Assembly (NCBI GenBank): GCA_023265025.1
Contig: JAHFUP010000012.1
Coordinates: forward strand, 1-64,000
DNA from: Acidimicrobiia bacterium
Lineage (GTDB): Bacteria; Actinomycetota; Acidimicrobiia; Acidimicrobiales; AC-14
Reading direction: 5' to 3'
DNA: 64,000 nucleotides
Part shown: positions 47,400 to 56,520 of the stretch, one piece after another
How positions within the stretch are numbered: the first letter of the stretch is position 1
How the letters are laid out: each line of letters opens with the position of its first letter
The notes under the pieces: model-generated
The model's database searches: none
Told to the model about the DNA's origin: nothing
The model's input: the letters and a program-made list of their open reading frames with translations, nothing else
Translations under genes and position numbers: made by a program

Positions 47400-48120
47400 C
47401 GCTCACCTGTGATCTCGGGTCAACCACTGCCTGACCCCACGCGCAGAGCGCCACCGCAGCAACGGGAAGGATGATCGCCCAGAAGTGGACGAGGGCGGTC
47501 ATCAGCCCCCCGAGCGCAGCGCCGCCGGCGAAGGCGACCACCACCCGGCGGAACGCCTGTACGCGGCGCATGACAGCCGCCCGCTCGTCATTCGGCCGTC
47601 CTCCGAAGACCCCGTCCGCGATGTCCATCCCCAGCAGCGTCAACGTGCCCGTCACCATGGTCGTCGGGAAGACGTAGCCGCCGAGCCGGGTGGCGACGCT
47701 CTGCACGGCCATCGCCGACACGCCGGCGGCACCGACGATCGTCTGGGCCACCAGGGACGGGCCGTTCCGGTGAGGAACCAGCGACACGCCGAACACCAGG
47801 AACAGTCCGAGGAGCACTGCCTCAATGCCCAGGATGACCGGAAGCGCCCCAGCAGAGCTCCGGCGCCGGATCCGGCCTGCCGCCCACGCGGCGGCGATCA
47901 CGGCGGCGAGCCACAGCGGCACCATGATCAGCAGGGGGATGGCGCTCCGTCCAGGACGGGCTGCGGCGATCGGAAGGTTACCCGTCACGTGGTTGGGGAA
48001 GAGCCCGCGCAGCATCATGTAGCCGGCGGTGTCGACGTAGCCGCCGACCAGCCCCAGGGTCACGGCTCGGGTGGCATCCCATCGGGTGGCGAGGCGCGAC
48101 GGCGCGAGGACGGCGATCAT
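47380..48120 (-). CDS. YoaK/DUF1275 family membrane protein
   Basis: A 246-residue membrane protein with six to seven hydrophobic segments. The N-terminal RAVTLGLVGGYVDTAGYMMLRGLFPNHVTGNLP is the DUF1275/YoaK signature, followed by AVQSVATRLGGYVFPTTMVTGTLT. The function of the family is unknown. The ATG overlaps the stop of the DUF983 gene upstream (ATGA), so the two are coupled. Confidence 0.9.
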   Translation of the reverse strand: MIAVLAPSRLATRWDATRAVTLGLVGGYVDTAGYMMLRGLFPNHVTGNLPIAAARPGRSAIPLLIMVPLWLAAVIAAAWAAGRIRRRSSAGALPVILGIEAVLLGLFLVFGVSLVPHRNGPSLVAQTIVGAAGVSAMAVQSVATRLGGYVFPTTMVTGTLTLLGMDIADGVFGGRPNDERAAVMRRVQAFRRVVVAFAGGAALGGLMTALVHFWAIILPVAAVALCAWGQAVVDPRSQVSATSSPR

Positions 48121-48554
48121 CTGGGCTTCAGGCGGACGTCGCTCGGCTCGGTCTCGTCGACGGGACGCAGGATGAGCTCGATGGCGACCCATAGCGTCTT
48201 GGAATAGGGGTAGAAGACGAGCGGTGCCAGCACTGCTCCGACAAGTCCGCCGACGATGACCGGTACCAGGCTGGCGTCGGGATCGGCGTTGAGCATGACG
48301 ATCGTGGGAATGACGGCAAGGAGCATCACCAGGCCCTGCGCGATCACCAGGTTCATCACATAGGCGCCGAGGAAGAACCCTTCCTCCCGTGCGAACTGGT
48401 AGCCACATCCGGGGCAACGGTCGGCCATCGCGAACCAGCCCGAGAACAGCCGGCCGGCGCCGCACGCAGGGCAACGCTTCAGTGCGCCGCGCAGGAGCAT
48501 GCGCCCGGGCGAAGGGGTGGCGGCCGCGCCCTTCTCGCCCACCGCGGTTGCCAT
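48117..48554 (-). CDS. DUF983 family membrane protein
   Basis: A 145-residue protein. The N-terminal LLRGALKRCPACGAGRLFSGWFAMADRCPGCGYQF has two CxxC pairs (zinc-ribbon type). EEGFFLGAYVMNLVIAQGLVMLLAVIPTIVML and VPVIVGGLVGAVLAPLVFYPYSKTLWVAIELILRP follow as membrane helices. This is the DUF983 layout, sometimes tied to haem or copper-related membrane assembly but unproven. Coupled to the DUF1275 gene by ATGA. The N-terminal Cys pairs are intact. Confidence 0.9.
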   Translation of the reverse strand: MATAVGEKGAAATPSPGRMLLRGALKRCPACGAGRLFSGWFAMADRCPGCGYQFAREEGFFLGAYVMNLVIAQGLVMLLAVIPTIVMLNADPDASLVPVIVGGLVGAVLAPLVFYPYSKTLWVAIELILRPVDETEPSDVRLKPR

Positions 48555-48636
48555 GTCGAACTCCTCTGTCTCGTCGGTCGCCCCATCGTGCGGCCCGTCG
48601 TTGCACGCCGGTTGCACCACGCGACCACTGACGGCC

Positions 48637-48795
48637 CTAGGAGAAGCCGGTACATCCGATCTCGTCCCCTCCGCCGACTCCTCCCCGAGTGAGCTCCTCG
48701 ATCGTGCCGAGGACTCGAAGCTCGGGCGGACGATCGGGCTCAGCCGTCCCGGCCGGCGGCGCCGGCCGCTCCTCGGGAACCATGCGCTCCTCCAT
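48637..48795 (-). CDS. Lasso-peptide-type RiPP precursor
   Basis: A 52-residue peptide. The leader ends RPPELRVLGTIEELTRG, matching the lasso RiPP leader pattern (PxLxxLGx-x-ELTxG, Thr at -2). If cleavage is after TR, the core is GGVGGGDEIGCTGFS: Gly1, acidic Asp7/Glu8 for the macrolactam and a short tail. It starts ATG at 48795 (GGAAGGGG upstream) or ATG 48783. It overlaps the 3' end of a fragment resembling an asparagine-synthase (lasso cyclase) C-terminus on the same strand. The B1/B2 leader peptidase genes are not in the window. The family call is from motif pattern by eye. Confidence 0.65.
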   Translation of the reverse strand: MEERMVPEERPAPPAGTAEPDRPPELRVLGTIEELTRGGVGGGDEIGCTGFS

Positions 48796-48997
48796 CGCCA
48801 ACCCCTTCCCGAGGATCGCCCTCGATGCACCGCCGGTACCAGAGTTCGAGGGCGACCACCGCCTGCATCGCCCAACCCGTCTCCGCCCGGCCGCGCTGCT
48901 CAAGGTAGTCGCGACGGACGGCGGGCAGATTTGGGCTGTTGACCAGGCCGAGGGCGACGAGCTGGGAGGAACTTGTCAACGCCCGTCGCGGCGAGAC
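48740..48997 (-). pseudogene. Fragment resembling asparagine synthase (lasso cyclase) C-terminus
   Basis: The reading LVALGLVNSPNLPAVRRDYL, then WAMQAVVALELWYRRCIEG, matches the end of asparagine-synthase-like enzymes, which finish with a WxLxxLELWLRxx helix. In lasso clusters that protein is the macrolactam-forming cyclase. Only about 60 residues are recognisable: no ATP-pyrophosphatase motif (SGGxDS) is found upstream, so the gene is truncated or frame-broken. It overlaps the start of the precursor gene by 56 bp. The fit is moderate; coincidence in GC-rich DNA is possible. Confidence 0.4.
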
Positions 48998-48999
48998 GG

Positions 49000-49151
49000 G
49001 AAGAACACCGCCGTCATTGCGACGCTCGACCGCGTAGGGCGGTGGACCGTTGGCGAGCCGCCGAGATCGGACTAACCTGGTCCTTGGCAGTACTACCCAC
49101 TCCTGACCCCGGTGGTGCACCTCAGGGCACTTCCAGGAGAAGGAGCGCGCG
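49000..49151. other. Intergenic stretch without clear gene
   Basis: No convincing coding frame. It lies between the cyclase-like fragment (minus) and two small weak frames (plus), and holds AGGAGAAGGAG at about 49134-49144, a good ribosome site for the frame that starts at 49152. Confidence 0.3.
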
Positions 49152-49346
49152 ATGGCCGGATGGTCCGGGTTCTTCGGGTGGCGGAGCCGGGACAAGCGGG
49201 TCCAGCCCGGCCTCCGGTCGTCTGATCCAGAAGTCATCCCGGCCGGCGGCGAGCCTTCGGAAGCCCCCCACGTCCCGGGCCTGGTGATTCGCGCCCGGCG
49301 AGCTGGCCAGCCCGCTTCGTCGCCGGTTCCGGGGGGAACCCCGTGA
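49152..49346 (+). CDS. Possible small protein
   Basis: A 64-residue frame, MAGWSGFFGWRSRDKRVQPG..., behind a strong purine-rich AGGAGAAGGAG. Its stop lies in a GTGA overlap with the next small frame (49343-49537), but codon third positions are less GC-biased than in true genes here. It is basic, Pro-rich at the end and has no family match. A minus-strand frame over 49350-49550 (FGQFRERLLTVREICGVLRAEERSAKVDAF) is an equally plausible coding alternative in the adjoining sequence. Confidence 0.3.
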   Translation: MAGWSGFFGWRSRDKRVQPGLRSSDPEVIPAGGEPSEAPHVPGLVIRARRAGQPASSPVPGGTP

Positions 49347-49537
49347 CCGGCGGTGTGTCCAAAGTCGTCGAGGCGGCCGGACGCCAACGCCTTGAACGCA
49401 TCGACTTTGGCGCTTCGTTCCTCGGCCCGGAGCACTCCGCAAATCTCCCGCACGGTGAGGAGGCGCTCCCGGAATTGGCCGAAGGTTTCGTGGTCGACTG
49501 GCAGCTGCTCGCAGCCGTCGAGGCCGGTATCGGTTGA
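49343..49537 (+). CDS. Possible small protein, coupled frame
   Basis: A 64-residue frame starting GTG inside the preceding TGA: VTGGVSKVVEAAGRQRLERIDFG... Third-position GC is only about two-thirds, lower than in neighbours, and the opposite strand has a competing protein-like frame. Reported because the GTGA junction is the coupling style used across this window. Confidence 0.2.
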   Translation: MTGGVSKVVEAAGRQRLERIDFGASFLGPEHSANLPHGEEALPELAEGFVVDWQLLAAVEAGIG

Positions 49538-49625
49538 GCCCGGCCCCCATTCGCCCCGCCGGCGACGACTGGCCATGGCCAGCCGGCGATGACGGAGAGC
49601 CCGACCGAACCCCAGCCTTTCGCTG

Positions 49626-49949
49626 GTGGTCGGTCGGGCCTTGGGCACCGTGGTGGTGACGGCCGACGGGCCCCTCACCCTGGCGAGCTGCCAGCGCCTC
49701 GAAGCCCTGCTCGCGGACCTCATCGAGGGCCAGGGCAATCTGGCCGTGGCCGTCGATCTGGCCCGGGCCTCCGTCGAGCCGGCGGCGCTACCGGTGTTCA
49801 TCGACGCGGCGCGCCGAGCCGGCCTCCACAGCACGAGGTTCATCCTGAAGGGACTGCCGGCGGACGCTCACGACGTGCTGCTGTCGAACGGGATGTCGCA
49901 TTCGGTCGAGGTCACACCCAGTCATGCCCGCCCCGTGGTGACTCCATGA
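49626..49949 (+). CDS. STAS-domain anti-sigma-factor antagonist-like protein
   Basis: A 107-residue protein. Strand-helix order ALGTVVVTADGPLTLASCQRLEALLADLIEGQGNLAVAVDLARASVEPAALPVFIDAARRAGLHSTRFILKGLPADAHDVLLSNGM is the STAS fold. The usual phosphorylated Ser lies in a D-S-(A/T)-G-loop; here the loop reads ARASVEPAALPVF, so phosphorylation is uncertain. It overlaps the XRE gene start (ATGA), heading a sensory gene run. Confidence 0.75.
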   Translation: MVGRALGTVVVTADGPLTLASCQRLEALLADLIEGQGNLAVAVDLARASVEPAALPVFIDAARRAGLHSTRFILKGLPADAHDVLLSNGMSHSVEVTPSHARPVVTP

Positions 49950-50413
49950 GCGAGGCCCCGGCTTGGTGGCCCGACGATCGCCCCGCACAGTTCGGGCGCC
50001 TTCTCGGCGAGGCGCTGGGGCGGCGCGACCTCACGCAGCAGGGCTTCGGGCGCATGGTGGGCGCCAGCCAGGCCTCCGTCAGCGGATGGATCGCTGGTCG
50101 GTACGAGCCGTCCCCCACGAAGGTCTTCGCCATGGAGGTGCTGCTGAGCTTGGAGCCCGGCACCCTCTGCCGAGCGCTGGGCTACCGGCCTGTGGACACG
50201 GCCCAGACGCCGAGCGTGGAGGTGGCGATCGCCGAGAGCACCGGGCTGGACGACGAGGACAAGGCCGCACTCCTTGGCGCCTACCGTGCGCTCTCCCGGT
50301 CCCGCGAGCCCGGCCGTCGACCAGACGGCATCGACGTCGGTCCTCGGGCCCGCGCTGGCGACGACTCGAGCGGGCGTTCGCACCGTCGCGTCCCGGGAAT
50401 CAACGGCGGCTGA
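49946..50413 (+). CDS. XRE-family HTH regulator
   Basis: A 155-residue protein with an N-terminal XRE/Cro HTH: FGRLLGEALGRRDLTQQGFGRMVGASQASVSGWIAGRYEPSPTKVFAMEVLL, where the helix pair TQQGFGRMVG and ASQASVSGWIAG is the HTH. The C-terminal half has an acidic helical piece (AIAESTGLDDEDKAALLGAYRALSR) and a low-complexity tail. ATGA overlap with the STAS gene suggests co-expression. The targets are unknown. Confidence 0.85.
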   Translation: MSEAPAWWPDDRPAQFGRLLGEALGRRDLTQQGFGRMVGASQASVSGWIAGRYEPSPTKVFAMEVLLSLEPGTLCRALGYRPVDTAQTPSVEVAIAESTGLDDEDKAALLGAYRALSRSREPGRRPDGIDVGPRARAGDDSSGRSHRRVPGINGG

Positions 50414-54982: not shown

Positions 54983-56380
54983 ATGACAGAGCGAACCACG
55001 ATCCAGATTCCCGGGTTCCGGGGCGACGTGATCGTCGCGGGGCATCATCAGTACGACGGAGCACGCGCCGTATGGAACGGCGCCGTCGACCGACGACCTC
55101 GAGTGATCGCGCGCTGCCGAGTGACCGCCGACGTCGCTGCCGCGGTCCGCTTCGCCCGCGACCGCCGCCTTGAGATCGCCGTGCGAGGCGGGGGCCACAA
55201 CGTGGCCGGCACGGCGGTGTGCGACGACGGGATCGTGATCGACCTCTCGGCGATGCGCGCCGTCACGGTCGATCCTGTCGAGCGCACCGCTCTCGTCCAG
55301 GGCGGGGCTCTTTGGGGAGACGTCGACCACGCCACGCAGGCGCACGGTCTCGCCACCACGGGCGGCATCGTGAGCCACACCGGCGTCGGCGGCCTGACCC
55401 TGGGCGGCGGCATCGGCTGGCTGATGCGCAAGCACGGGCTCACCGTGGACAACCTCCTAGAGGCCGAGGTGGTCACGGCCGAGGGCCAGGTCGCGCGGGC
55501 GTCCGCCAGCGATCACCCCGACCTGTTCTGGGCGCTGCGGGGCGGCGGTGGGAACTTCGGCGTCGTCGGCTCGTTCCGGTTTGCGTTGCACCCGGTCGGC
55601 CCCACCGTCGTGGCCGGCCCGGTCTTCTGGGCGGCCGAGGACACCGCGGACGTCCTGCGCTTCTACCGTGACTTCGTCACCGACGCGCCCGACGAGCTCG
55701 GGAACGTCATCCGGCTCGGCACGATCCCCCCCCTGCCGGTGATCGACGAAAACCTCCACTTCCGGCCGGCGATCGCAGTGGCCACCTGCTATGCCGGACC
55801 CGTTCAGGAAGGCGCGCGCGCCGTCCGTGCGCTCCGCCAGTTCGGGACCCCGCTCGTGGATCTGGTCGGACCCACGTTGTACGTCGACCACCAAAGCGGC
55901 GTCGATGACACCGTCCCCCACGGCTGGCACTACTACTGGAAGGCCACCAACCTCACCGGCCTGTCCGACGAGGTCATCGACATCGTCGCCGAGCACGCCT
56001 ACCGCGCCGCCTCACCGAGGTCGTATGCGGCGATGTTCCACTTCGGTGGCGCAGTGGCCCGCGCCCCTCGGGACTCCACGGCCTACGTGGGGCGCGACGT
56101 GGAGCACAACATCGTCATCGACGCAGCCTGGCTCCCGGAACAGGACGACACCGTCGGCGCTGTGGAGACCGCTTGGGCACGAGCATTCCTCGACGCCCTG
56201 CAGGCTCACCGAGCCGGCGTCTATGTGAACTTCCTCGACTCCGACGACGACACGAGCCGCGTCCGCGAGGCCTATGGCGACGACACGTACCGGCGGCTCG
56301 CCGAAGTGAAAGCGAAGTACGACCCCGAGAACGTGTTCCACAACAACAAGAACATCCCGCCGGGGACGCCGGCGCGTTGA
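54983..56380 (+). CDS. FAD-linked (BBE-type) oxidase
   Basis: A 465-residue flavoprotein of the PCMH/BBE group. RPRVIARCRVTADVAAAVRFARDRRLEIAVRGGGHNVAGTAVCDDGIVIDLSAMR is the FAD-binding half; GGHN carries the conserved His and AVCD a Cys. VQGGALWGDVDHATQAHGLATTGGIVSHTGVGGLTLGGGIGWLMRKHGLTVDNL follows. The BBE C-terminal tail YGDDTYRRLAEVKAKYDPENVFHNNKNIPP is present. Family enzymes oxidise alcohols, sugars or tetrahydroisoquinolines; the substrate is not evident. Divergent from the HxlR regulator, so probably induced by an electrophile or its substrate. Confidence 0.92.
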   Translation: MTERTTIQIPGFRGDVIVAGHHQYDGARAVWNGAVDRRPRVIARCRVTADVAAAVRFARDRRLEIAVRGGGHNVAGTAVCDDGIVIDLSAMRAVTVDPVERTALVQGGALWGDVDHATQAHGLATTGGIVSHTGVGGLTLGGGIGWLMRKHGLTVDNLLEAEVVTAEGQVARASASDHPDLFWALRGGGGNFGVVGSFRFALHPVGPTVVAGPVFWAAEDTADVLRFYRDFVTDAPDELGNVIRLGTIPPLPVIDENLHFRPAIAVATCYAGPVQEGARAVRALRQFGTPLVDLVGPTLYVDHQSGVDDTVPHGWHYYWKATNLTGLSDEVIDIVAEHAYRAASPRSYAAMFHFGGAVARAPRDSTAYVGRDVEHNIVIDAAWLPEQDDTVGAVETAWARAFLDALQAHRAGVYVNFLDSDDDTSRVREAYGDDTYRRLAEVKAKYDPENVFHNNKNIPPGTPAR

Positions 56381-56520
56381 TCACGCTGACTTCATGGGTG
56401 CCATCAGGGTTTGCGCGCGGTCGATCCCGAGACCCCAACCCAGTGTCCGACTGGACCGTGCGGGAGACGAGATCACGGGTGCGGGTTGAAGCTGAACCGG
56501 ACGCCGATTCGGGGTGGGCG

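Follow-up and report, generated by a model that had tools for sequence, protein, structure and literature searches.

The minus strand of the window (the whole 64,000-nt stretch of DNA analyzed here) carries a short gene, designated gene A, whose product has the layout of a lasso peptide precursor, and upstream of it a reading frame, designated C′, that resembles the end of a macrolactam cyclase (Table 1). The full reading of gene A is MEERMVPEERPAPPAGTAEPDRPPELRVLGTIEELTRGGVGGGDEIGCTGFS followed by a stop, which the predicted cleavage point divides into MEERMVPEERPAPPAGTAEPDRPPELRVLGTIEELTR and GGVGGGDEIGCTGFS. The 88-aa ORF with a TTG start in the mechanical ORF list is an upstream extension of the 52-aa ATG form. 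By codon position, the GC content of gene A is 0.77/0.57/0.77.

Table 1 Features of the precursor locus and, in the last row, of related precursors elsewhere in the same genome (window positions unless stated)
Feature	Position	Strand	Remarks
Lasso precursor gene A	48637..48795	minus	ATG at 48793-48795; 52 aa + stop
Leader peptide of gene A	48685..48795	minus	D(-17)RPPEL(-12)...G(-8)...T(-2)R(-1); NF033521 match
Predicted core	48640..48684	minus	GGVGGGDEIGCTGFS; Gly1; candidate ring closers Asp7 or Glu8; C-terminal Ser15
Shine-Dalgarno-like sequence	48802..48810	minus	GGGAAGGGG; 6 nt before the gene A ATG; read from the sequence
C′, putative cyclase remnant	48827..48985	minus	RALTSSSQLVALGLVNSPNLPAVRRDYLEQRGRAETGWAMQAVVALELWYRRC; 53 C-terminal codons, Asn-synthase-family macrolactam cyclase
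Segment upstream of C′	48986..49129	minus	Without cyclase homology or coding signal; third-position GC 0.67
DUF983 gene, downstream neighbor	48117..48554	minus	Context, outside the lasso cluster
DUF1275 gene	47407-48123		Forms a block with DUF983, conserved in congener G003
Two tandem precursors, contig C60	L013 8471-8911 and 8964-9404; contig C60 about 55470-56403	plus	Leader, e.g., YEPPSLVWLGPLVDLTRFGG

We placed the core by the register of Thr(-2) with Pro(-14) and Leu(-12), and the cleavage site is predicted from this register. Lasso leaders carry a YxxPxL motif at defined positions (PMC10368454), here -17 to -12; the gene A leader has Pro(-14) and Leu(-12) exactly there, with Asp in place of the usual Tyr at -17, and it retains Thr at -2 (ELT-R/GG, the slash marking the predicted cut). 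Ring formation follows the rule of a free core residue 1 plus an Asp or Glu at core position 7–9 (PMC8498205), and the predicted core of gene A offers Gly1 together with Asp7/Glu8. The C-terminal Ser recalls paeninodin, in which the terminal Ser is the target of a kinase, and the other kinase-tailored lasso peptides (PMC9266682). Clusters of the paeninodin/pseudomycoidin type have HPr-kinase-like and nucleotidyltransferase genes (PMC9266682), whereas gene A has neither alongside and position -17 of its leader is neither Trp nor Tyr.

The NCBIfam profile NF033521 (lasso_leader_L3), whose PxL..LG....LT elements recur in gene A at identical spacing, ranked gene A first when run against the entire 5.45-Mb genome in six frames (E 0.021; 19.1 bits in frame context), ahead of two lasso precursors on contig C60 at ranks 2 and 8. 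Scored alone, the protein reached 18.3–18.5 bits, so that against the curated cut-off of 19 the match is borderline, just over in frame context and slightly under alone. It spans profile positions 3–19 of 20, leaving the first positions (Tyr) unmatched. A combined leader-and-core pattern matched once in the window, at gene A, and three times in total in 40 shuffled windows (0.08 per window); in 0.9 Mb of other DNA, all 20 of its 20 matches fell in loci chosen for lasso-leader or B2 matches. Pfam gave no match for either the precursor ORF or the stump ORF. Homologue searches with both gave only low-complexity matches in 10 family genomes and class-wide samples; two scans of about 85,000 species genomes detected no close relative, and a plasmid collection yielded nothing useful.

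C′ was scored with a C-terminal HMM that we built from 31 Asn-synthase-family loci. The match (11.5 bits, P 1.6e-5) was equaled by one of 2000 shuffles, and only 4 of 18,794 overlapping genomic peptides reached its score, three of which belong to the genuine cyclase on contig C163. Alignment by hhalign to a 20-row alignment gave a probability of 83% (P 9.6e-6). C′ ranked seventh genome-wide with an E of only 0.32, and thus much of its weight comes from its position. The true cyclases on contigs C60 and C86, as well as the lasso cyclase of the congener G002, scored below C′ with the same model, which is therefore insensitive to lasso-type ends. In pairwise alignments C′ was significantly similar to general Asn synthases (best to those at loci L109, L116, L121, and L123); no single alignment with a lasso cyclase (G002, C60, C86, or C163) was significant. 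BLAST of C′ against the genome's own cyclases likewise returned nothing significant, which is not evidence against C′, since lasso cyclase ends diverge. A PDB sequence search found nothing. The GC content of C′ by codon position (0.72/0.50/0.86) is coding-like. There is thus a good case from sequence that C′ is an Asn-synthase/lasso-cyclase-type end at the family level; its assignment to the lasso subfamily rests on position, as 53 residues are too few to resolve the subfamily.

The C′ frame, which differs from that of gene A on the same strand, has no stop after the region of homology and runs open into gene A as far as a stop at 48740; therefore, the original cyclase stop is gone. No frameshifted continuation of the cyclase was found upstream of 48985, in the three frames by eye or by third-position GC. 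An earlier note on this DNA had described a lasso-like precursor overlapping a cyclase-like fragment. Our searches bear out both identifications, the precursor through its first rank with NF033521, its leader register, Gly1, and Asp7/Glu8, and the cyclase end at the family level through the HMM, shuffle, and hhalign statistics. The overlap holds for the open reading frames, but 31 nt lie between the end of the homology and the ATG of gene A, and the two features are separate.

The same note saw no B1, B2, or intact C in the window, and this extends to the whole 85-kb contig (C66): the Pfam B2 model found no B2, our own models no B1 or B2, and the Asn_synthase domain (PF00733) had no match, so that a full-length cyclase is absent in cis. 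The assembly consists of 185 contigs, but the site lies inside its contig, so a contig edge does not account for the truncation. Neither a flanking repeat nor a mobile element was recognized around the remnant to explain a deletion, and inspection of flanking repeats and tRNAs disclosed no integration or deletion scar. The DUF983-DUF1275 block downstream is conserved in the congener G003 (80% and 76% identity), where it is preceded by an ABC-transporter gene set and not by a lasso gene; the lasso remnant is thus lineage-specific. Separately, GTTGCA/TGCAAC motifs are repeated upstream of DUF983 both here (48590-48625) and in G003 (L183 8235-8280) and are a possible shared operator.

B2 genes (PF13471) are rare in the class, occurring in 18 of 385 genomes. 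One intact cluster lies in G002 (contig C62, L087), where B1 (PqqD), B2, C, and A follow one another on one strand with a divergent ABC exporter, and A starts 23 nt after the stop of C; in G347, too, A directly follows C. A cyclase end followed at a short distance on the same strand by a precursor, as in the window, is thus how such a cluster would be expected to end; G002 has the complete set, whereas of C the window has only the stump. The G002 precursor aligns with gene A across the leader and the start of the core (PxL...G.I..LT..GVG.G...G), past the cleavage site, and 0 of 2000 shuffles of the G002 precursor equaled the score; it differs in having Tyr(-17) and in the greater length of its core region, NGVGSGIDGGLIPGMTRPT. 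Overall, the class precursors closest to gene A are those of G103, G002, and its own genome's C60 (scores 58, 51, and 49 and 48).

We consider it probable that in gene A and C′ the 3′ end of a B1-B2-C-A lasso cluster survives as a relic: upstream of an intact precursor ORF, and on its strand, stand the final ~50 codons of a cyclase-family gene, and no other part of the cluster is found on the contig. A deletion or rearrangement with a junction close to 48985 would have taken away B1, B2, and most of C. That gene A is the genome's top lasso-leader match counts for this reading, as do the homology of C′ beyond shuffles and nearly all other genomic peptides, the C-then-A order of G002 and G347, the alignment of gene A with the G002 precursor, the lack of B1, B2, or another C on the contig, and the ABC-transporter gene upstream of the G003 block. 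The absence of a sigma-70-like promoter in 48000-50000, searched with sigma-70 patterns alone, points the same way. So does the replacement of Tyr(-17) by Asp, since YxxP is reported to be essential for RRE binding (PMC13381572). Against a relic stand the undamaged ORF, the good ribosome site, and the retained core features, none of which would have to persist in a gene long dead. The ~50-residue stump, moreover, is closer in pairwise comparison to general Asn-synthase C-termini than to those of the lasso cyclases compared and has the E of 0.32 noted above; the scans of about 85,000 species showed no close relative of either part, and hence no intact ancestor; and no recognized repeat or mobile element explains the deletion.

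From what is known of the family, the intact cluster would have worked as follows. B1 would bind the leader at Y(-17)xxP(-14)xL(-12) and deliver the precursor, and cleavage by B2 would fall behind Thr(-2)-Arg(-1). Adenylation of Asp7 or Glu8 by C would then allow its linkage to Gly1, giving a ring of 7 or 8 residues around the remaining tail. The predicted product is a small lasso without a disulfide, with a tail of 7–8 residues in which Phe14 would be the sole bulky plug; a kinase might act on the terminal Ser, as happens in paeninodin. The chemistry of such a product is of a known kind. In its present state, gene A is probably decaying, deprived of its operon promoter, its cis enzymes, and its Tyr(-17) anchor.

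The earlier note had offered distant enzymes as an alternative to truncation and proposed a genome search for maturation genes, and three B1/B2/C sets are indeed present in the same genome. The C60 set comprises NTP_transf_5, B2 (Transglut_core3), a Pfam-less ORF, two precursors, B1 (PqqD), and C; the C86 set has NTP_transf_5, B2, a weak HPr-kinase match, C, and B1. Both thus share NTP_transf_5, and C86 the weak kinase match, with clusters of the paeninodin/pseudomycoidin type. On C163 (L014), B1 (PqqD) and the cyclase are adjacent, with an ABC transporter, and B2 is about 12 kb off; we recognized no precursor there. Gene A could therefore be a live orphan whose expressed product is processed in trans by one of these sets, most plausibly that on C60. 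The gene A leader aligns best within the genome to the two C60 precursors, one of which nearly shares PP.L..LG....LTR.GG with it (YEPPSLVWLGPLVDLTRFGG versus DRPPELRVLGTIEELTRGG in gene A); the ORF is intact, its terminal Ser is that of kinase-tailored lasso peptides (PMC9266682), and a citrulassin tailoring enzyme is known to act from outside its cluster (PMC8498205). However, Tyr(-17) is now Asp and RREs discriminate between leaders (PMC13381572), the adjoining cyclase stump points to cluster loss, no sigma-70 promoter pattern was seen, and gene A lacks the Peptidase_S74 tail borne by the C60 precursors, whose set runs in the order B2-A-A-B1-C. We regard maturation in trans as unlikely, and the wider proposition, that gene A is a functional stand-alone precursor with a non-aromatic -17 residue and that one B1/B2/C set serves several scattered precursors, as doubtful too. 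Truncation is the better supported of the two, given that about 50 residues are all that is left of the cyclase and that Tyr(-17) is lost. The outcome that the note had named as refuting its proposal, namely no maturation genes and no homologous precursors, is contradicted by the three sets and by the related precursor beside an intact cluster in a congener.

In each of the two C60 precursors, a lasso-type leader and a brief core-like segment are fused to a Peptidase_S74 intramolecular-chaperone domain at the C-terminus (Pfam E 7e-11 and 1e-8). In phage tailspikes, S74 domains self-cleave at their start. By analogy, the S74 tail might free the C-terminus of the core. Our literature search found no paper combining a lasso-type precursor with a Peptidase_S74 domain.

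It is also conceivable that, in a GC-rich genome, the precursor-like ORF and the cyclase-like end resemble lasso genes by coincidence. Neither match is strong by itself (genome-wide E 0.02 and 0.32), NF033521 also gives weak matches under its cut-off in control genomes that are unrelated, and nothing searched contains a close homologue. Yet the two signals are independent and, with 31 nt between them, share a strand and the order of G002 and G347; we estimate from the genome-wide search that a cyclase-end match this good would fall within about 1 kb of the leader with a probability of ~1e-4, and the precursor pattern is rare in shuffled windows, as noted above. Because two independent signals coincide in the G002-type order, we give chance a low weight and think it very unlikely. 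Least probable of all is an origin of the stump in an ordinary amidotransferase gene of the AsnB type that was placed independently beside a lasso precursor: its best pairwise matches are general Asn synthases and the C60, C86, and G002 lasso cyclases score lower with the same model, but lasso cyclases belong to the same family with divergent ends, and if C precedes A as in G002 and G347, a cyclase end is expected at precisely this position.

If the locus is the relic of a B1-B2-C-A cluster, as we favor, it reflects ordinary cluster decay and illustrates that a precursor can outlive its cluster, adding a new core sequence. Orphan RiPP precursors of this sort are easily missed by enzyme-first genome mining. 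With three enzyme sets in the same genome, trans maturation is directly testable.

Two further observations concern loci in other genomes. In G322 (contig C6; L086 7462-9963, minus strand), a single open frame of 834 aa has both cyclase similarity and a Transglut_core3 (B2) match and, judging from these matches, is a possible fused C-B2 enzyme. In G236 (contig C83; L091 6918-7534, plus strand), six tandem lasso-type precursors lie downstream of a B2 gene and have very short acidic cores, e.g., LGDGSLKQDGN.
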